A DNA stretch of 37,485 nucleotides from Actinomycetes bacterium (GTDB lineage Bacteria; Actinomycetota; Acidimicrobiia; Acidimicrobiales; RAAP-2), in NCBI GenBank assembly GCA_021794995.1, contig JAJYPY010000009.1, positions 1-37,485 of the forward strand. Direction: 5' to 3'. Numbering within the stretch: position 1 is the stretch's first letter; the number at the start of each line of letters is the position of its first letter. Of the stretch, positions 14,347 through 25,169 are shown one piece after another. The position numbers were made by a program, and so were the translations under genes. Below the pieces are notes generated by a model that was not told the DNA's origin, made no database searches, and was given only the letters and a program-made list of their open reading frames with translations.

Positions 14347-14850
14347 CCGTCCCTCCCCGCGCTGCCACGTCCCGGATCGCCCGCCCGACTTGTGCCACAG
14401 GGCCAGTGTCGTGAAGCACGCGTCCGGATCACCCGGCAGGAGGGACATCACGATGGTGAGGGCTGCCGCGGCGCACGCGGCCAACGCTTCGATCTCGACG
14501 CCGGTCCTGCTGACGACCGACGTCGTGGCCCTGACCTCGATCGACGCCGCGCGGGGCGCGATCTGGACGTCGACGTCGTCGAGAGGAATCGGATGGCACA
14601 GCGGGATGAGGGACGACGCCTGCTTCGCTGCGTGCATGCCCGACGCCTTGGCGAACGAGAAGAGGTCCTCGGCCTTCGCGCCAGCTTCGATGGCGTCCGG
14701 AGTCGCGATGATGACGCAGCGCGCCATGGCCCTCCGCAGGGTTTCGGCCTTGCCGGTGACGTCCACCATCCGAGCGCGGCCGTGCTCGTCGAGATGAGTG
14801 AGCGCATGGCTCGCCGGGCGGTCACCGGGTGGGGGACCCCCGATGCTCAC
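14308..14850 (-). CDS. moaC: MoaC-like cyclic pyranopterin monophosphate synthase, atypical
   Basis: MoaC acts after MoaA in the first step of molybdenum cofactor synthesis. From GTG 14850, which overlaps the fdhD stop as GTGA, the protein is 180 residues. It shows LTHLDEHGRARMVDVTGKAETLRRA (17-41), LIPLCHPIPL (81-90, with the conserved His), the double-glutamate TGVEIEALAA, and HKSGGRSGTW near 153-162. The segment that reads ALTIYDMCKA in standard MoaC is ALTIVMSLLP here, at the same spacing. The Asp and Lys considered active-site residues in characterised MoaC are therefore absent. A tail of about 18 residues after SGGRSGTW runs into the end of the permease gene. It is either a divergent enzyme or a related protein with another role. 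Confidence 0.8.
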   Translation of the reverse strand: MSIGGPPPGDRPASHALTHLDEHGRARMVDVTGKAETLRRAMARCVIIATPDAIEAGAKAEDLFSFAKASGMHAAKQASSLIPLCHPIPLDDVDVQIAPRAASIEVRATTSVVSRTGVEIEALAACAAAALTIVMSLLPGDPDACFTTLALWHKSGGRSGTWQRGEGRSIGAAEGVDRHA

Positions 14851-15710
14851 GTGGGGGCACCGATCACGCGCCACGCTCCTGCATAGATGTTCGCCCGGCC
14901 CTCGCGGACGAAGCCGGCCAGGGTCATGTCGAGCGCACGTGCGGTGGCGACCGCGAGGCTCGACGGCGCGGACACGGCCACGAGCGTCGTCACACCGGCC
15001 ACCGCAGCTTTCTGGACGATCTCGTAGCTGACGCGTCCCGAGACGACGAGGACCGCGGCGTCGAGCGGAAGTCGATGCTGGAGCGCCGCCCATCCGACCA
15101 GTTTGTCGACAGCGTTGTGACGTCCCACGTCCTCTCGGACGGCCATCGCGCGACCGGTCGTGTCGAAGAGTCCTGCGCCGTGCAGGCCCCCGGTCTGAGC
15201 GAACACGCGTTGACGCTTCTGCAACGTCGCGGGCAAGCTCGTGAGCACGTCTGCGTGGATCGGCTTTCCGGTGGGAAGGGCGGGACATCGGTCTTTCAAC
15301 TGGTCGAGCGTCGCCGTCCCGCAGACGCCACAGCTCGCGCTGACCAGGACCTCCCGGCGTCGTGATCCGACGATCGTGGGCCGCGAGGATGCGACCGTGA
15401 CGACGTTGAAGTGCTGGACGTCCCCGTCTGGCAGGTCGCAGTACTTGACGGATTGGACCTCGTGCGCGTCAGTGACGAGTCCCTCGGTGAGGAGGAAGCC
15501 GACCGCGAGCTCGAAGTCGTTCCCCGGCGTGCGCATCGTGACGGCAACCGGCTCGGGTGGCGTCGAGGGACTGCTGAGGCGGATTTCAAGCGGCTCTTCT
15601 CCCACCACCTGGTCTGGGCGTTCGCTGGATCCCGTTTCACAGAGCACCGTCACGAGCACGGGCTCGACGGGTGCCGCGCGGTGCGCCGTGCTCCCGGGCA
15701 CGCCCGTCAT
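14847..15710 (-). CDS. fdhD: Formate dehydrogenase accessory sulfurtransferase FdhD
   Basis: FdhD passes sulfur to the molybdenum cofactor of formate dehydrogenases and is needed for their activity. The 287-residue protein has the conserved SCGVCG pair of cysteines near residue 125. It also shows the cofactor-binding blocks GGLHGAGLFD and REDVGRHNAVDKLVGWA, then VSGRVSYEIVQKA, all standard for the family. The length is normal. It overlaps moaC by GTGA and so is translationally coupled to it. This pairing with an FdhB/NrfD gene set just across the intergenic region suggests a shared role in a molybdenum- or tungsten-dependent oxidoreductase. Confidence 0.93.
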   Translation of the reverse strand: MTGVPGSTAHRAAPVEPVLVTVLCETGSSERPDQVVGEEPLEIRLSSPSTPPEPVAVTMRTPGNDFELAVGFLLTEGLVTDAHEVQSVKYCDLPDGDVQHFNVVTVASSRPTIVGSRRREVLVSASCGVCGTATLDQLKDRCPALPTGKPIHADVLTSLPATLQKRQRVFAQTGGLHGAGLFDTTGRAMAVREDVGRHNAVDKLVGWAALQHRLPLDAAVLVVSGRVSYEIVQKAAVAGVTTLVAVSAPSSLAVATARALDMTLAGFVREGRANIYAGAWRVIGAPT

Positions 15711-15776
15711 CGCCCGTGGAACCTCATGGCGCCGAACGTACCAGCGCCCGCCGCTCGTGCGAGTCCGCGAGCGGGC

Positions 15777-16007
15777 TCACGATTCGGACTCCAACTTCGC
15801 CGCGAGTCGTCGGGCTGCATCCTTCGCCTCTGCAGGGCTCGCTCCTGCGCGCCCGACGATCCACGCGGAGAGTGGGGCGGCGGTCCGCTCCGAGGCGTGC
15901 GCGGCGATGCCGGCGAGGCCGAGCAGCGCGTCTGCCTCCTCCTCGGAGGGGGCGGTCGTGCCCAGCGCCTTTGCGAACTGCTCTGCCCATTCGGTGGCGG
16001 TCGTCAC
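15777..16007 (-). CDS. Small DUF6457-like protein
   Basis: A 76-residue acidic helical protein beginning TTATEWAEQFAKALGT and containing ADALLGLAGIAAHASERTAAPLSAWIVGRAGAS. This arrangement is that of the small DUF6457 family, which in actinobacteria is found alone or fused to molybdenum cofactor guanylyltransferase. The function is unknown; the neighbourhood of fdhD and moaC fits a cofactor-related role. It ends 66 bases before fdhD on the same strand. The GTG start lies within an inverted repeat described separately. Confidence 0.75.
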   Translation of the reverse strand: MTTATEWAEQFAKALGTTAPSEEEADALLGLAGIAAHASERTAAPLSAWIVGRAGASPAEAKDAARRLAAKLESES

Positions 16008-16025
16008 GTGGACGCTTTACCACGT
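16006..16025. promoter_or_regulatory. Inverted repeat over the start of the DUF6457 gene
   Basis: ACGTGG and CCACGT are separated by 8 bases, and the repeat overlaps the DUF6457 start codon within the divergent DUF6457/fdhB intergenic region. It could be an operator or a translational hairpin. The arms are only six bases, so chance cannot be excluded. Confidence 0.3.
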
Positions 16026-16045
16026 TTTGCGCCGCCCAACCTTCG

Positions 16046-16082
16046 CCGAGATCCGTCGGCGCCGCGATCCGGCGCGTCTCGG
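16046..16082. promoter_or_regulatory. Imperfect hairpin upstream of the fdhB-like gene
   Basis: An outer stem CCGAGA/TCTCGG encloses an inner stem GCGCC/GGCGC with a 7-base loop and an asymmetric bulge. It lies about 90 bases before the fdhB start and could form in the leader RNA. No riboswitch class was recognised. Confidence 0.25.
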
Positions 16083-16174
16083 AGGGATTGCCCCGCAGCG
16101 CCCGGAGATGCGTCAGGCCGCCAGCTTGCGTCCGGGGTGGGAACCACCGGGGAAGGGGGTATGAGCCGAGTCAC

Positions 16175-17035
16175 ATGACGAGGAGCGCACGCATCTTCAG
16201 CAACGGTCAGGCCGTTGCGGCGGCAAGCGGGTACGACGGCGCACCCCCGCGGGTGGGCTTTTTCACCGACACGTCCGTGTGCATCGGCTGCAAGGCGTGC
16301 GAGGTGGCCTGCAAGGAGTGGAACCGGATTCCCGAGGACGGCCTGACCTTCACGGCGATGTCCTACGACAACACCCAGGGGCTCGGGGCCGACTCCTGGC
16401 GTCACGTCGCGTTCGTCGAGCAGGTCCGCGAAGGAGCTCCCGGCGACCTCGCCGGCGCAGGCCGCGTCCGCTGGCTCATGTCGTCGGACGTCTGCAAGCA
16501 CTGCACCGAAGCAGCGTGTCTCGACGTCTGCCCGACCGGCGCCATCTTGCGCACCGAGTTCGGCACGGTGGTCGTGCAAGAGGACGTCTGCAACGGCTGC
16601 GGTTACTGCGTCCCCGCGTGCCCCTTCGGCGTGATCGACCAGCGCAAGGAGGATGGCAGGGCCTGGAAGTGCACGCTCTGCTATGACCGGCTCGGCGCCG
16701 GACACGAGCCTGCGTGCGCCGGAGCCTGCCCCACCGAGTCGATCCAGTTCGGGCCGTTGGACGAGCTGCGAGAGCGTGCAGACCGCCGGCTCGCGGCGCT
16801 GCACGGCGCCGGGATGGTGGATGCCCGGCTCTACGGGCGCGATCCGGACGACGGCGTCGGAGGAGGTGGCGCGTTCTTCTTGTTGCTCGACGACCCCGAG
16901 GTGTACGGACTGCCGCCCGATCCGGTGGTGACCACCCGGGACCTCCCCCAGATGTGGCTGCACGCGGGGATCGCCGCGGTCGCGCTTGCGGTGACGGTGG
17001 CAGGTGTCTTCGTGGGGGGACACCATGCGCCATGA
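16175..17035 (+). CDS. FdhB-like four [4Fe-4S] ferredoxin subunit with membrane anchor
   Basis: The electron-transfer subunit of a complex iron-sulfur molybdoenzyme, 286 residues. Four cysteine clusters are seen: CIGCKACEVACKEWN, CKHCTEAACLDVCPTG, CNGCGYCVPACPFG, and CTLCYDRLGAGHEPACAGACP. These are the usual ligands for four [4Fe-4S] centres. A C-terminal helix (WLHAGIAAVALAVTVAGVFVGG) would anchor it in the membrane. No twin-arginine signal is present. The ATG at 16175 overlaps the stop of a five-codon leader reading frame. The ORF-track start at 15671 is too far upstream. The NrfD gene overlaps its 3' end. No catalytic (FdhA-type) subunit gene lies alongside, so the partner enzyme must be elsewhere. 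Confidence 0.92.
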   Translation: MTRSARIFSNGQAVAAASGYDGAPPRVGFFTDTSVCIGCKACEVACKEWNRIPEDGLTFTAMSYDNTQGLGADSWRHVAFVEQVREGAPGDLAGAGRVRWLMSSDVCKHCTEAACLDVCPTGAILRTEFGTVVVQEDVCNGCGYCVPACPFGVIDQRKEDGRAWKCTLCYDRLGAGHEPACAGACPTESIQFGPLDELRERADRRLAALHGAGMVDARLYGRDPDDGVGGGGAFFLLLDDPEVYGLPPDPVVTTRDLPQMWLHAGIAAVALAVTVAGVFVGGHHAP

Positions 17036-17999
17036 GGGAAAGCTCGCCCGGGTCGGGCCGGAGGGCGTCGTGCCGCGACGTCGCGCACAGGGCGGCGACG
17101 ATCAGACGTGCACCTCCTATTACGGGCTGCCTGTCATCAACCAGCCTGTCTGGTCGGCCAGGGACGTTGCGGGCTACCTCTTTTTGGGAGGGCTCGCCGG
17201 CGCATCGGCACTCGTCGGTGCGGGCGCGCACGTCACCGAGCGGCCGCGCCTCGCACGGTCGGCCAAGCTCGGGGCGGCAGGCGCCGCCGCGCTGTCGATG
17301 CTCGCCCTGGTGCACGATCTCGGACGCCCGGCACGCGCGCTGCACATGCTGCGCGTCGTGAAGCCCACCTCGCCGATGAACGTCGGATCGTGGCTCCTCG
17401 CCGCCTTCGGGCCGGCGACGGCCGTCGCGGCGGCGAGCGATGTCACCGGGGTGTCCCCGGTGCTCGGCGACGCGGCGACGGTGTGCGCTGCGGTGCTCGG
17501 GCCGGCGGTCGCCGCGTACACGGCGGCACTCATCTCCAACACGGCCGTCCCGTCGTGGCACGAAGGACGCCGCGAGATGCCGTTCGTCTTCGTGGCTTCC
17601 GGGGCGTCCGCGGCAGCCGGCGTCGGTCTCGTGCTGGCCCCCGCCGGCGAGCTCGCCCCGGTCCGTCGGCTCGCCGCAGTCGCCGGACCGACCGAGATCG
17701 TCCTCACGAAGCTCATGGCGCGCAAGATGGGTCTCGCGGGTGAGCCCTACCGGACGGGCAGAGCCGGTGCGACCCTGCGAATCGCCGAGGTGTGCACGCT
17801 TCTCGGGGCAGGCGGCGCGCTCTTCGCACGCACCCGGCGCGCGGTCGCGCTCGGTTCGGGCCTCGCGTTGCTCGCGGGCTCTGCGCTCGAGCGGTTCGCC
17901 ATCTTCTACGCCGGGCTCCACTCCGCGCAGGATCCCCGCTATAGCGTGCTTCCCCAGCGCGAGCGGCTGTCCCGGCCGCCGGACGGCACATCGCGCTGA
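17025..17999 (+). CDS. NrfD/PsrC-like polytopic membrane subunit
   Basis: A quinone-interacting membrane subunit of molybdoenzyme or polysulfide-reductase-type complexes, 324 residues. After a cytoplasmic start with SYYGLPVINQPVWS it has about eight to nine helices. These include GYLFLGGLAGASALVGAGA, the DLGRPARALHMLRVVKPTSPMNVGSW block typical of NrfD, and ISNTAVPSWHEGRREMPFVF. I chose ATG 17025, with GGGGGGA just upstream, over the GTG at 17004. It overlaps the fdhB-like gene by 11 bases, which fits a tight two-subunit module passing electrons between the quinone pool and an absent catalytic subunit. Confidence 0.88.
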   Translation: MRHEGKLARVGPEGVVPRRRAQGGDDQTCTSYYGLPVINQPVWSARDVAGYLFLGGLAGASALVGAGAHVTERPRLARSAKLGAAGAAALSMLALVHDLGRPARALHMLRVVKPTSPMNVGSWLLAAFGPATAVAAASDVTGVSPVLGDAATVCAAVLGPAVAAYTAALISNTAVPSWHEGRREMPFVFVASGASAAAGVGLVLAPAGELAPVRRLAAVAGPTEIVLTKLMARKMGLAGEPYRTGRAGATLRIAEVCTLLGAGGALFARTRRAVALGSGLALLAGSALERFAIFYAGLHSAQDPRYSVLPQRERLSRPPDGTSR

Positions 18000-18109: not shown

Positions 18110-19743
18110 GGGTCGTCGCGGTGGTGGCCGGCGGAGATCCAGCGCGCCGCTTCTGCGCTGTGGCGGCGGTAGTCGAGCTTGCCGCTTGGTGAGCGGCCCA
18201 CCGATCCGACGATGCGCACCCTGCGGGGCGCCTTGAATCCCGCGAGACGAGCCTTGACGTGGTCGATCAATTCCTGCTCGTCGGGCACCACGGGGCCCGC
18301 GGGCTCGACGATGCCCACCACCATCTCGCCGAAGCGCTCGTCGGGCACGCCGACCACCGCCGCGTCGCGTACCCCCGGGTGCGTCTTGAGCGCTTCTTCG
18401 ACCTCTTCGGGGTACACCTTCTCGCCGGCGGTGTTGATCGAAACCGACCCGCGCCCGAGCAGATGGATCGACCCGTCGGCACGGACCTGCGCGTAGTCGC
18501 CTGGGATCGAGTACCGCACACCGTCGATCTCGCGGAACGTCGCAGCGGTCTTCTCGTCGTCCTTGTAGTAGCCGATGGGGTTGCGCCCGGCGAGCGCCAG
18601 CACCCCGACCTCCCCCGAGCCCGGGGCCACGGGGCGCCCGTCCTCGCCGAGGACAAGGACCTCGGACCCGAGCGCGAACTCGGCCGTCTTCGACGCCGCC
18701 GTCCCCGTCGAGATCGACGCGCCCATCCCGAGGGCTTCCGAAGAGGCGAAGAAGTCGAAGAGGACCATGTCGGGGCGGTGCCGGAGCAGGCCGGCCTTCA
18801 CCTCCTCGCTCCACATGGCGCCCGAAGAGAGGATGCCGACGAGCGACGAGAGGTCCCAGCGATCCGGCTCGGCGTCGAGGGCGGCGAGCATCGGCCGGCC
18901 GAACGGGTCGCCGACGATGACGACCCCGTTCACCTGCTCACGCTCGATCGCGTCGAAGAGCTCGACGGGATCGAAGTGCCGACCCTCCAAGAGCACGACC
19001 TTGCCGCCCTCGCTCAGGCATTCCATCGCGGTGAAGGCGCCCGTGGCGTGCATGAGCGGACATGCGGGGAGCAGCGCCATGCCCGGACCGCTGGTGCGCA
19101 GGGCTTCCTCCACGCCGGCCACCCCTGTCGCGTCGCGGTAGTGACGGAACCCCGAGGCGTTCATGCGGGCGAACAAGTCGTCTTGGCGCCACATGACGCC
19201 CTTGGGCATGCCGGTGGTACCGCCCGTGTACAGCATGACGAGATCGTCGCCACTTCGTCCCCACGGCGCCACGGTCCGCTGCGCAGCCGACGTCGCCGCT
19301 TCTTCATAGGGGGTTGCCCATGGAGGGCACGCCGACGTTCCGTCGTCCACCCAGAGCCAACCCCGCACCTTCGGAAGCTTGGCGCGGACCCGCTCCACGA
19401 GTTCTCGGAATGCGCCATGGAAGACGACCGCCGCCGCGTCGGCGTTGTCCCAGAGATAGACGATCTCGCGGTCGGCGTAGCGGTAGTTGGTGTTGACCGG
19501 GACGGCGCCCACCTTGAGGATGCCAAAGACCGACTCGAGGTACTCCGGCGCGTTGTAGAGATAGATCGCCACCTTGTCCTGCCGGGCGATGCCCACGCCC
19601 AGGAGCCAGCGGCCTACCCCGTCCGCTCGGCGGTCCATCTGCGCCCAGGAGATGCGCCGCTTGCCGTGGACGAGCGCCGGGGCGTCGGGTTGCATATCGG
19701 CCGCGACTTCCCAGACGTCGGCGAAATTCCAGCTCGAGCTCAT
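18100..19743 (-). CDS. FadD-like acyl-CoA synthetase (AMP-forming)
   Basis: This enzyme activates a carboxylic acid to the acyl-adenylate and then to the CoA thioester. From ATG 19743 it is 547 residues. It carries the P-loop YTGGTTGMPKG, the A5-type block FFASSEALGMG, the GDYAQVRADGSIHLLGRG hinge region and GEKVYPEEVEEAL. The terminal catalytic-lysine block is RSPSGKLDYR. These define a complete ANL-superfamily enzyme; chain-length preference is unknown. The ORF-track start at 20094 overlaps the divergent membrane-protein gene and lacks family similarity, so the internal ATG was chosen. It fits a fatty-acid degradation set with the thiolase and acyl-CoA dehydrogenase. Confidence 0.93.
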   Translation of the reverse strand: MSSSWNFADVWEVAADMQPDAPALVHGKRRISWAQMDRRADGVGRWLLGVGIARQDKVAIYLYNAPEYLESVFGILKVGAVPVNTNYRYADREIVYLWDNADAAAVVFHGAFRELVERVRAKLPKVRGWLWVDDGTSACPPWATPYEEAATSAAQRTVAPWGRSGDDLVMLYTGGTTGMPKGVMWRQDDLFARMNASGFRHYRDATGVAGVEEALRTSGPGMALLPACPLMHATGAFTAMECLSEGGKVVLLEGRHFDPVELFDAIEREQVNGVVIVGDPFGRPMLAALDAEPDRWDLSSLVGILSSGAMWSEEVKAGLLRHRPDMVLFDFFASSEALGMGASISTGTAASKTAEFALGSEVLVLGEDGRPVAPGSGEVGVLALAGRNPIGYYKDDEKTAATFREIDGVRYSIPGDYAQVRADGSIHLLGRGSVSINTAGEKVYPEEVEEALKTHPGVRDAAVVGVPDERFGEMVVGIVEPAGPVVPDEQELIDHVKARLAGFKAPRRVRIVGSVGRSPSGKLDYRRHSAEAARWISAGHHRDDPEG

Positions 19744-19861
19744 CGGCGCGGCCACCCGCCGGGAGCCTATGCGCCTGCCCCCATGGCGCGGCAACCTCGC
19801 CGTTCCCGCTGCCCTTGGTAGGCTCACGCAGCCTTCGACATGGAGCAGGGGGAAACGGACC

Positions 19862-21061
19862 GTGGCGCGCTCTCGGCAACAGTCTGACCGCGCCGGCTCC
19901 CCCCGGCGCCTACGCCGTCTCGGTCCGAACACTCCCGCGACGCCGGCGCTTGCGGCGGCGCTCGGCGGGGTCGTATTCGTCCTGCTGCGCCTCGTGGTCG
20001 TCGCCAAGGGCGACGCCAGCCGCTTTGTCATGGCCGGGCGGGACTTCGTCGTTCCTTCGCGCGCTCCACGCGGGCTGCACGTGTTTGCCGGCACCGGCTA
20101 CGACGGTCAGTTCTACTACCGGCTCGCGCTCGATCCGGCCGATCTGTCCAAGACGGCGTTCGGCATCACGCTCGACGCCGGCTTTCGGATCCAAAGGATC
20201 GGATTGTCGGTGCTGTCGTGGCTGGCGTCGGCCGGTCAGCACCAGCTCGTCCCAGACGCGGAGATCGCGGTCAACCTGGCGGCACTCGTCGTGCTCGCGT
20301 GGCTCGGTGGCGTCATCGCCAAGGACGCGGGACGTCACGCGCTGTGGGGTCTGCTCGTCGCGGGCTTCTGGGGCTTCCTCTTCAGCATCGGGAGAGACCT
20401 GCCCGAGGTCGTGGCGAGCTGCTTTCTCGTGGGGGGTCTGCTCGCACTCCGGCGGGATCGGCCGCTCGTCGCCGGGGCGCTCTTCGCGTGCGCGGTGCTC
20501 ACGCTCGAGACCACCTTGGACGTGGTCATCGCGGTGGCACTCGTCAGTCTTTTCCAGATCGCGAGGCACAAGAGGCGTCCGGGTCCGCGTGATGCGGCGT
20601 GGGTGGTCCCAGGTCTCGCGTTCGTCGGCTGGCAGCTCGTCGGCTGGCTCGCGACCGGCACGCTCCCGATGCGAGCCGACACCGGGGACAACATCGCCGC
20701 ACCCCTCGTCAACCCGATCGGGGCTTTCGTCTACTACCTCACCCATCCCTTCTCTGCGTCGTCCCTCGTCTGGCTGGGCCAGTTCTTCGTGCTGGCGGTG
20801 GTGACGCTCCTGGCCGGCTGGGCACTGCGCAGATCCAGGGTGCCCAGCTGGGAGAAGCTCGCGTGGGGCATCGCGTTGCTGGTCGCGCTCTCGCTCGCGC
20901 ACGGCGTGTGGTACGGAAAGGCGAACTTTCGCGGGTTCGAGGACCTCTACGTCCTCTCTTCGATCGTCCTGCTCGGCTCACGGCACCGGCTGTGGCTGCC
21001 TGCGGCGCTCGTCGGAGTGGCGTGGGCCGTCACCTTCGCCCATTACGTCGTCTCGCTCTGA
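19862..21061 (+). CDS. Polytopic membrane protein of unknown function
   Basis: From GTG 19862, with CAGGGGGAAA upstream at proper spacing, this is 399 residues. One helix (LAAALGGVVFVLLRLVVVA) is followed by an extracytoplasmic loop with FAGTGYDGQFYYRLALDP. Eight or more helices follow, and a small periplasmic loop contains RADTGDNIAAPLVNP. The acidic loop right after helix 1 recalls GT-C glycosyltransferases, but I do not recognise a specific family. The track ORF start at 19574 is antisense to the acyl-CoA synthetase and was trimmed. It converges on the riboflavin synthase gene. Confidence 0.75.
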   Translation: MARSRQQSDRAGSPRRLRRLGPNTPATPALAAALGGVVFVLLRLVVVAKGDASRFVMAGRDFVVPSRAPRGLHVFAGTGYDGQFYYRLALDPADLSKTAFGITLDAGFRIQRIGLSVLSWLASAGQHQLVPDAEIAVNLAALVVLAWLGGVIAKDAGRHALWGLLVAGFWGFLFSIGRDLPEVVASCFLVGGLLALRRDRPLVAGALFACAVLTLETTLDVVIAVALVSLFQIARHKRRPGPRDAAWVVPGLAFVGWQLVGWLATGTLPMRADTGDNIAAPLVNPIGAFVYYLTHPFSASSLVWLGQFFVLAVVTLLAGWALRRSRVPSWEKLAWGIALLVALSLAHGVWYGKANFRGFEDLYVLSSIVLLGSRHRLWLPAALVGVAWAVTFAHYVVSL

Positions 21062-21124: not shown

Positions 21125-21601
21125 TCACTCGCGCAGAGGCCCCGCGTCCGTATATCCCTGTCGTACCCCGTGGCCCGCGCGTGCGATCAGCTGCTCGGGC
21201 TCGTAGAGCATCCAGTAGGCATTGCGGGCGTGCTTTCGGGAACGATCCTTGAAGACCGGTACGAGACGCGCAGGGTCGTCTTCCTCGTCCTCGTGCACGA
21301 ACACCTCGAGGATGGGGGTACTCGTCAGCAACTGCGCCAACATGATCCCGGTCGACGCCTCGTGGGCGCACACCTTGTCGATCGGCGCTTTGCCGGGCAT
21401 GCCGAGCGCGACCACGATCCGGCAGCCATCGATCTCGACGAGGCGCTTGGCAGCCACCGCCAGATCCTTGAAGCCAGGGACCGTGCGGCGCACGACCTCG
21501 AACCGCACGCCGTGGCCGGGGCAACGCTCGAGCTCGGCCACCGCCTCGGCCCCCATGTCGAACCGGGCGAACATCGTGTCGACCACACCGATCTTGTCCA
21601 C
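21125..21601 (-). CDS. ribC: Archaeal-type riboflavin synthase
   Basis: This enzyme dismutates 6,7-dimethyl-8-ribityllumazine to riboflavin. From GTG 21601 it is 158 residues and reads DKIGVVDTMFARFDM, then RRTVPGFKDLAVAAKRLVE and CRIVVALGMPGKAPIDKVCA. HEASTGIMLAQLL, LEVFVHEDE and GHGVRQGYTDAGPLRE complete it. This block order, and the conserved GMPG, CAHEAS, VHEDE and RQG..DAGP motifs, match the archaeal RibC type. That type is a lumazine-synthase relative, unrelated to the two-domain bacterial riboflavin synthase. The track start at 21679 adds 26 residues with no similarity. No other riboflavin gene is adjacent. The assignment rests on motif recognition. Confidence 0.88.
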   Translation of the reverse strand: MDKIGVVDTMFARFDMGAEAVAELERCPGHGVRFEVVRRTVPGFKDLAVAAKRLVEIDGCRIVVALGMPGKAPIDKVCAHEASTGIMLAQLLTSTPILEVFVHEDEEDDPARLVPVFKDRSRKHARNAYWMLYEPEQLIARAGHGVRQGYTDAGPLRE

Positions 21602-21691
21602 CGCCCTATTCTCGCGTGGCCGGCACGACCGGCACGCGCCCGCGCTCACGGCGCGCGCGCGTGGCCGATCGCGCCCCAATCGAGCAGCGCG

Positions 21692-21856
21692 TCACCACCG
21701 GTAGAAGCGGTGCCTCCCCGCGCTCTCACCACGTCCCACGGCGTAGCCAACGAGCCAGAGGAAAAGGAAAATCGCGGCAATGATCCAAAGGAAATGGAGA
21801 GCGAATCCAAGTCCAAAGAATAATAACACAATGATGAATGCAAGCAGCAAAAGCAC
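21692..21856 (-). CDS. Small hydrophobic membrane protein
   Basis: A 54-residue protein, nearly all of it two closely spaced hydrophobic segments (LLLLAFIIVLLFFGLGFALH and LWIIAAIFLFLWLVGYAVG), ending in a basic-aromatic tail RHRFYRW. It resembles the tiny hydrophobic proteins widespread in actinobacteria that are often stress-induced; the function is unknown. The start is GTG 21856 with a perfect GGAGGA 5 bases upstream; the track start at 21934 lacks this. The stretch is visibly AT-rich (I count 22 G/C in the 60 bases 21781-21840) and contains two consecutive TTA leucine codons, rare in high-GC genomes. A SigB/SigF-like promoter lies upstream. Confidence 0.8.
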   Translation of the reverse strand: MLLLLAFIIVLLFFGLGFALHFLWIIAAIFLFLWLVGYAVGRGESAGRHRFYRW

Positions 21857-21906
21857 GTGAATCCTCCAGGTCTCAGGCGATCCCGCGTCGCCTTGTACCT
21901 CACGAT

Positions 21907-21932
21907 CTACCCAGGGGTTAGTGCGGTGAACC
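21907..21932 (-). promoter_or_regulatory. SigB/SigF-like promoter of the small hydrophobic gene
   Basis: On the minus strand GGTTC is followed by 15 bases and then GGGTAG. This fits the actinobacterial SigF/SigB pattern GGTTT-N15-17-GGGTA with one mismatch. The transcript would start about 35-45 bases before the ribosome binding site. This is a pattern match only. Confidence 0.5.
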
Positions 21933-22134
21933 ATTTCCCTCGACCGTGTACTCGCACGAAGAGCAATAGCGGTTCTACGTCAGAGATCGTGCCCGCCCTC
22001 CCGGGTCTGCCTGCGGCCGCACGAAGGCGGAGGACCGGTCCCCCGAGCGTCTCGAGCTGGCCTCGCGATCAGGGGAATACGTGGGGATTCCATATGTGGC
22101 ACGGTCTTGACCTGGTCGGCAAGAATGGACCGGA

Positions 22135-23718
22135 ATGCTGGCGGACCTGAGGCATCGAGTCGCGGCCGAGCTCGAGGCCGACGAGACGCAGGAGCCGTGC
22201 CTGCGCCGATTCGGCATCGCCGGGCTCGTTGCGAGCCTTGCCGTCGTCGCCGGAGCCGTGGCGGGCGGATCGAGCTTCATCTCCCGGCTCCCGGGCGCCT
22301 GGTTCTTCGGCACGCCCGGCGGCCCGCTCGGATTCGTGTCTGCGAGCTCCGCGCGAGCTCCGGCTATCAGCATTCTCGCCGTCTACGGCGGCATGGCGGC
22401 CCTGTGCGTCATCTGGTGGCGGCTCCTTCGGGCATTGCACCGCCATCCCGGCATGTCCGTCCGGGGGGTCGTGCGCACGATCTGTGCGTGGGCCGTGCCG
22501 TTCGTGCTCGCTCCGCCGCTCTTCAGCCGCGACGTCTACAGCTATGCCGGACAGGGCGAGATGGTCACCTTCCACATCGATCCCTACCACTACGGGCCGG
22601 GCGTGCTCGGCGCCACGCGCTTCAACCTGCTGGCCGGGCCCCTGTGGGCGAACACGCCGTCGCCGTACGGCCCCACCTTCCTCTCGCTCGACGGGCTGGT
22701 GACCCGGCTGTCGGACCACCAGGTGCTGGTGACGCTGTTCCTGCTGCGTGGACTGGCACTCCTTGGCGTGGCGCTGGTGGCCGTGGGACTGCCGACGCTC
22801 GCACGCGGTGCCGGGCGGGATCCCGCGGCCGTCCTCGTGCTGGGCGTGGGGAGCCCGCTCGTGCTCGCCACCCTCATCGGTGGCGCGCACAACGACGCCT
22901 TGATGGTCGGCCTGCTCGTCGCGGGGCTGGCAGCCTGGCAGCGGTTCGGACCCGTGCCCGGGATCGTGCTGTGCGCGCTCGCAGCGGGGGTGAAGGTGCC
23001 CGCTGCGCTCGGCATCATCGTGATCGGGTGGAATTGGGCTCCCCAGGGGGCGCGACTGGTCCAGCGCGTCGGGCGGACCCTCGGTGCGCTCGGGATCGGC
23101 GCCGCGACCCTTGCGCTCGTGTCGGCGGTGACGGGCATCGGCTGGGGATGGGTGGTCACCGTGACCGCCCCCGACAAGGTCAGCACCGGGGTCACTCCGG
23201 TCGATGCGGTGGCCCATGTGATCACCGCGGTGCTCCACCTCGCCGGCAGCTCGGTGCCGCTGGCACCGGTACGCACCGCCGTGTCGATCACGGGTGTGGT
23301 CACCGCGGTGGTCGTGGGGACGGTGCTCCTCTGGCGCTCGCCTCAGCTCGGTCCGATCCGTGCGCTCGGGATGGCCCTGCTGGTCCTCGCGCTCCTGAGC
23401 CCGGTCCTGTGGGCGTGGTACCTCACCTGGGGACTCATCCTCCTCGCACCGGTCGCCCAAGGGGTGCTGCGGCGGGTGCTCATCTGGCTCTCGGTCGCCG
23501 AGTCCCTCATCGGGGTGTCGGCGGTCCTCGGGCTCTGGCGCGCCGCAGGTCACGACGGGGCACTCCCGATCGCCATGGTGGTGGTCGGCGTCGGCGCCGC
23601 GATCCTCACCGCGGCGCGCGCTCCCTATGCGCACGTCCCGCCACGGCCGCGTTCGGCGCCCTCGGGTCGTGACGTCAGCGTGTCGCCGGTGGTGAGCCGG
23701 GCACCCGTCGAGCGCTGA
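22135..23718 (+). CDS. mptB: MptB-like polyprenol-phosphate-mannose alpha-1,6-mannosyltransferase
   Basis: A GT-C glycosyltransferase that would extend a mannan chain outside the membrane using polyprenyl-phosphate mannose. The 527 residues form about a dozen helices. They include the family motif LFSRDVYSYAGQGEMV, followed by DPYHYGPGVLG and PYGPTFLSLDGLV, which corresponds to the donor-site loop of MptA/MptB. Further blocks are IGGAHNDALMVGLLVAG and SPVLWAWYLTWGLIL. The ATG has no strong ribosome binding site, and 278 bases without a recognisable gene separate it from the small hydrophobic gene. The pmm and isomerase genes earlier in the window would supply mannose donors. Substrate specificity is inferred from the family. 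Confidence 0.85.
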   Translation: MLADLRHRVAAELEADETQEPCLRRFGIAGLVASLAVVAGAVAGGSSFISRLPGAWFFGTPGGPLGFVSASSARAPAISILAVYGGMAALCVIWWRLLRALHRHPGMSVRGVVRTICAWAVPFVLAPPLFSRDVYSYAGQGEMVTFHIDPYHYGPGVLGATRFNLLAGPLWANTPSPYGPTFLSLDGLVTRLSDHQVLVTLFLLRGLALLGVALVAVGLPTLARGAGRDPAAVLVLGVGSPLVLATLIGGAHNDALMVGLLVAGLAAWQRFGPVPGIVLCALAAGVKVPAALGIIVIGWNWAPQGARLVQRVGRTLGALGIGAATLALVSAVTGIGWGWVVTVTAPDKVSTGVTPVDAVAHVITAVLHLAGSSVPLAPVRTAVSITGVVTAVVVGTVLLWRSPQLGPIRALGMALLVLALLSPVLWAWYLTWGLILLAPVAQGVLRRVLIWLSVAESLIGVSAVLGLWRAAGHDGALPIAMVVVGVGAAILTAARAPYAHVPPRPRSAPSGRDVSVSPVVSRAPVER

Positions 23719-23745: not shown

Positions 23746-23867
23746 GGTCAATGGCCGTACGCTCCGCAAGGAACCCGGTCGCCAGCGAGCCGCGCGGGCT
23801 GCACGGGCCGCCCCGCCCCGCAGCCCCGCACCCCGAAGACCGAGCCAACTTGACGACGGAGGCGACC

Positions 23868-25169
<1,302 letters not shown>

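Follow-up and report, generated by a model that had tools for sequence, protein, structure and literature searches.

An archaeal-type riboflavin synthase very probably stands in for bacterial RibE in a clade of Acidimicrobiales

The ribC locus

The window (the whole stretch of DNA analysed here, 37,485 nucleotides of contig JAJYPY010000009.1) comes from a bacterium of the order Acidimicrobiales and carries an unbroken reading frame for an archaeal-type riboflavin synthase, RibC, with a GTG start codon at 21601 (Table 1). In the genus, ribC is flanked by an MptB-like gene on one side and a gene for a membrane protein on the other, and nine further genomes of the genus have these same flanks. 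The membrane protein frame scores 139.9 bits against NF046093, slightly under the cut-off of 150, and its true start is uncertain, as the listed frame overlaps an AMP-ligase frame. Acyl-CoA dehydrogenases that are 68–79% identical to the one in the window are encoded close to ribC, and divergently to it, in families f1 (that of the window), f9, f99, f107 and f119, and the ribC locus is therefore old.

Table 1. Position of ribC, its putative promoter element and the neighbouring genes in the window
Feature	Position	Strand	Evidence
Membrane protein frame (context), convergent neighbour, kept in genus	19574..21061	+	NF046093, synteny
Archaeal-type riboflavin synthase gene (ribC / ribE2-like), 158 aa, GTG start	21125..21601	-	TIGR01506, 2b98, predicted fold, conserved residues, dN/dS
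Putative -10 element GAGAAT, 6 bases 5' of start codon, without Shine-Dalgarno	21608..21613	-	Recurring motif in congeners
MptB-like mannosyltransferase (context), divergent from ribC, kept in genus	22135..23718	+	NF038066 (122 bits), synteny
Acyl-CoA dehydrogenase (context, outside the function)	23751..25169	+	Pfam, synteny

The neighbours of ribC in the window are lipid, cell-wall and redox genes, with no rosB cluster among them. The window contains no RNA family, and a search for phage matches found none. The first-pass annotation, made from the sequence of the window alone, had described ribC as standing apart from other riboflavin genes, and the riboflavin operon does lie on a different contig of the genome (G000:C10). 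Elsewhere in the window, FdhD, a 4Fe-4S subunit and an NrfD-like membrane subunit (14847–17999) are probably part of a formate dehydrogenase-type respiratory set. A small reading frame for a hydrophobic product (21692–21934), located upstream of ribC, is partly kept in some congeners.

The upstream regions of ribC in most congeners share the motif CGCGAGAAT or CGCGACAAT about six bases ahead of the start codon, an ATG or GTG whose position does not change, and no Shine-Dalgarno sequence was found upstream of ribC in the congeners that share it. The motif is probably the -10 element of ribC's own promoter, which would give a leaderless mRNA. In some other genera, purine-rich ribosome sites are found upstream of ribC instead of the -10-like motif.

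The encoded protein

RibC of the window is a member of the archaeal pentameric riboflavin synthase family TIGR01506. It scores 183 bits (E 3e-54) against this curated equivalog profile (ribC_arch, cut-off 100.55), with an alignment that is near full length (residues 3–156 to profile positions 1–151), and is about 53% identical over its whole length to RibC of Methanocaldococcus jannaschii (M. jannaschii; 2b98, E 1.7e-51). The two domains of the bacterial enzyme (PF00677, TIGR00187) gave no match in profile searches of the protein, and the sole match in a Pfam search was DMRL_synthase (53.9 bits), a family in which Pfam places RibH and RibC together. RibH (PF00885, TIGR00114) is a distant homologue that shares the overall fold of RibC (TM about 0.7 to 1di0), but the score of RibC against the lumazine synthase profile TIGR00114 is far below the cut-off (26.3 against 84.6 bits). 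The AlphaFold2 model of the monomer (pLDDT 89.9) has its best PDB matches in 2b98/2b99, with TM 0.84–0.95 and rmsd 1.2–1.9; in the structure search these entries and designed derivatives rank first, with lumazine synthases far behind. The assignment to the archaeal type rather than to the two-domain bacterial enzyme, as made in the first-pass annotation, is thus borne out, and the motifs on which it was based (VVDTMFAR, GMPG, CAHEAS, VHEDE and DAGP) are all present in the frame.

Conservation extends to 44 alignment columns in which RibC of the window, its relatives and a diverse set of archaeal sequences do not vary; DT.FAR, TVPG.KDL, CAHEAS and EVFV.E are among them. The protein shares family, predicted fold and conserved blocks with the M. 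jannaschii enzyme, and differs from archaeal RibC in its bacterial host, in three extra residues near residue 27, and in its VVDTMFAR block, which is DTTFAR in most archaeal sequences. In many sampled archaea ribC adjoins ribH, whereas here it stands alone. Identity of ribC within the genus is 82–87%; changes among congeners fall mostly in third positions and dN/dS is about 0.1–0.16, which indicates that the gene is under purifying selection.

A riboflavin operon without ribE

The genome that contains the window (G000) is a 2.6-Mb draft, 90% complete, in which ribD, ribBA and ribH are present and family searches detected no bacterial RibE. The lumazine synthase of the operon is a separate, true RibH (about 165 bits). 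As the other pathway genes are present and RibE is undetectable, RibC is the sole recognisable riboflavin synthase of this genome. Families that carry RibE have the order ribD-ribE-ribBA-ribH, often with hisG next, while in RibC-bearing genomes, G000 included, the order is fmt-rpe-ribD-ribBA-ribH-hisG. The position that lacks ribE is the exact position of ribE in the RibE-bearing relatives, and in most RibC genomes ribD and ribBA are separated by between a few and a few tens of bases. It appears that ribE was lost from an otherwise unchanged operon and that its role is filled from the distant ribC locus. In one RibE-bearing relative (G026; L095, 9210–9341), ribD is preceded by an FMN riboswitch; the operon regions of G000, G020, G021 and G037 contain none scoring at the Rfam threshold.

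Distribution of RibC and RibE

In the window's own family, RibC was found in 21 of 25 genomes and bacterial RibE in none of the 25 by family search; the genomes without RibC (G005, G010, G011 and G023) are each 58–81% complete. A wider sample of 198 genomes of Acidimicrobiales, with RibC counted above cut-off, contained RibE in 133 and RibC in 26. The two enzymes overlap in a single genome, G579, whose RibC is divergent and falls outside the clade to which RibC of the window belongs. That clade is represented in this sample by 25 genomes from 10 families, none of which carries RibE (Fisher p 2e-14, a value that ignores kinship). Most of these absences come from draft genomes, so that RibE could have been missed in one genome, but hardly in all 25. 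RibC is the sole synthase of the clade at the level of family searches, and the gene in the window is not a stray one. The suggestion in the first-pass annotation that the bacterial enzyme had been replaced is supported both by this mutual exclusion across the order and by the absence of ribE from the operon.

Neither enzyme was found in 40 of the 198 genomes, including a 97% complete member of the window's family (G395), and the absence of RibE alone is therefore no proof of replacement. Such organisms may be auxotrophic for riboflavin or rely on an enzyme that goes unrecognised; in two of these genomes, G030 and G039, no lumazine synthase was found either. In G579 (family f14), which also carries RibE, a second-type lumazine synthase (PRK12419, 214 bits) is immediately followed by the very divergent RibC (120 bits; L238, 2995–3962), and the pair is possibly a dedicated flavin or lumazine unit.

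The first-pass annotation raised the idea of a paralogue with a different lumazine-like substrate. Both observations lend something to a wider form of it, in which the substrate of RibC is some other lumazine or a flavin-like compound and riboflavin is obtained by uptake or from an unrecognised synthase: other supply routes may exist in the order, and so may specialised versions of the protein. We consider this improbable. The intact ribD-ribBA-ribH operon makes a product that needs a synthase, for which RibC is the only recognisable candidate; RibC is complementary to RibE in 25 genomes; RibC retains the columns that do not vary among the archaeal enzymes compared; and the related Streptomyces RibE2 has been reported as a riboflavin synthase (PMC11039241).

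Beyond the order, RibC above cut-off was confined to Acidimicrobiales in a phylum sample of 397 genomes. Among archaea, the Thermoplasmata phylum had it in 80 of 116 genomes and the Micrarchaeota phylum in 24 of 97. Besides the genome of the window, bacterial carriers of ribC include bins from palsa, bog and fen. Two bins labelled Acidobacteriota (REEB240 and REEB101; L109 and L157) have a ribC of the Acidimicrobiales type, again next to the acyl-CoA dehydrogenase gene, and no RibE was found in either; given the shared arrangement and their place inside the clade, they are probably misnamed Acidimicrobiales. A 4.8-kb contig of a Desulfuromonadales bin (C00003107; L115) encodes a methanogen-like RibC and is probably archaeal contamination, the bin having a RibE of its own.

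Phylogeny and origin

Trees of RibC were built from 88 to 106 proteins and about 155 columns; they are unrooted, and their archaeal sequences come from outside Thermoproteota and Asgard. RibC of Acidimicrobiales forms one clade (99/97). With long branches left out, the bacterial sequences exclude all archaea (99/98), and with wider sampling of Micrarchaeota and Thermoplasmata they form a clade with support of 100/99 among archaeal sequences. This single bacterial clade among archaeal sequences is best explained by one acquisition from archaea long ago, with ribE lost afterwards. The old transfer proposed in the first-pass annotation is thus supported, as far as an unrooted tree allows, with the refinement that ribC is inherited mostly vertically within a group of Acidimicrobiales families.

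A single gain of RibC is compatible with the RpoB tree when f99 is left out (p-AU 0.33) and is rejected when f99 is included (0.004). The f99 relatives of G442 carry RibE; G442 itself probably received its RibC from another member of the order, with loss of RibE.

It is also conceivable, though quite unlikely, that there was no transfer from archaea to bacteria, either because an ancient family was kept here and lost in other bacteria, or because RibC arose in bacteria and then passed to archaea. The unrooted tree places the bacterial clade between Micrarchaeota and euryarchaeal sequences; in one data set with long branches Micrarchaeota fall inside the bacterial clade, and a constraint joining Micrarchaeota and bacterial RibC is not rejected (p-AU 0.57). 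Set against this are the restriction of RibC to one order of the phylum sample, while it is common in archaea, and the exclusion of all archaea from the bacterial clade once long branches are removed. Archaeal contamination of the bin, although mixed or misnamed bins do occur, as with the Acidobacteriota and Desulfuromonadales contigs above, is refuted for practical purposes by the 37-kb contig with its bacterial genes and typical codon bias (GC3 0.86), by the flanks repeated across the genus, and by the grouping of RibC of the window with bacterial rather than archaeal sequences.

A hybrid riboflavin pathway

The explanation we favour, and hold to be very probably correct, is that the window encodes a working archaeal-type RibC, the cell's only riboflavin synthase, which derives from a single old gain from an archaeon or a like lineage followed by loss of ribE. 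The ancestor of a group of Acidimicrobiales families would have acquired ribC a single time, the source being an archaeon or some unsampled lineage with the archaeal type. The gene would have been retained apart from the operon, with a promoter of its own, and the bacterial ribE would have been lost from between ribD and ribBA. We infer both the direction of transfer, from archaea to bacteria, and the order of the ribC gain and the ribE loss.

RibC belongs to a known enzyme family, in what looks to be a well-supported role with an ordinary mechanism. Judging from the completeness of the pathway and the absence of RibE, it would catalyse the dismutation of 6,7-dimethyl-8-ribityllumazine, joining two molecules to give one riboflavin and one 5-amino-6-ribitylaminouracil, with the substrate supplied by the genome's own bacterial RibH. 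Bacterial RibE (TIGR00187, PF00677), which most other families of the order have, presumably performs the same reaction at the same place in the pathway, but is a two-domain enzyme unrelated to RibC in sequence and fold, and occurs in no examined genome of the RibC clade. Archaeal riboflavin synthases are homopentamers and bacterial ones homotrimers (PMC10366380); by analogy with the M. jannaschii enzyme, RibC, of which the monomer was modelled, probably acts as a homopentamer.

Relation to RibE2 of Streptomyces

Archaeal-type synthases in actinobacteria are already known from the roseoflavin producers of the genus Streptomyces, where ribE2 encodes a riboflavin synthase, very similar to those of archaea, that raises riboflavin levels (PMC11039241). 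Horizontal transfer of RibE2 was proposed by Jankowitsch et al. 2012, as credited in PMC11039241. RibE2 is known from S. davaonensis, S. berlinensis and S. camelliae; the S. camelliae protein (WP_270086807.1) is 85% identical to that of S. davaonensis (PMC11039241). It is 63% identical to RibC of the window, and was the only plasmid match. In the tree it lies inside the Acidimicrobiales RibC clade (100/100, and 98/81 for a subclade), which suggests Acidimicrobiales or their kin as the likely source of Streptomyces RibE2. Its gene belongs to a roseoflavin-like rosB cluster on the S. camelliae linear plasmid (L348, 10543–19600), a possible vehicle of spread. RibE2 is an additional enzyme within an antibiotic cluster, while RibC of the window is the only synthase, is encoded away from any such cluster and is found across families.

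In the literature searched, we found no description of RibC as the sole riboflavin synthase of a bacterial group. Both this role across a large clade of bacteria and the tracing of RibE2 to Acidimicrobiales as its likely source appear to be new. On balance, though with less assurance than for the replacement itself, we think that one transfer founded a bacterial lineage that entirely displaced RibE in much of Acidimicrobiales, gave a hybrid pathway of RibH and a pentameric synthase, and was later the source of RibE2.

Significance

The displacement of RibE and the link to RibE2 are of moderate interest. An essential step of the vitamin B2 pathway would have passed, across domains, to an unrelated enzyme, in what amounts to a clean natural experiment, with the operon otherwise intact and related families that keep ribE. 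A likely bacterial source is also given for the archaeal-type synthase of roseoflavin producers. For the organisms themselves, scoring genomes by RibE only would wrongly class a widespread group of soil, peat and mine water as riboflavin non-producers.
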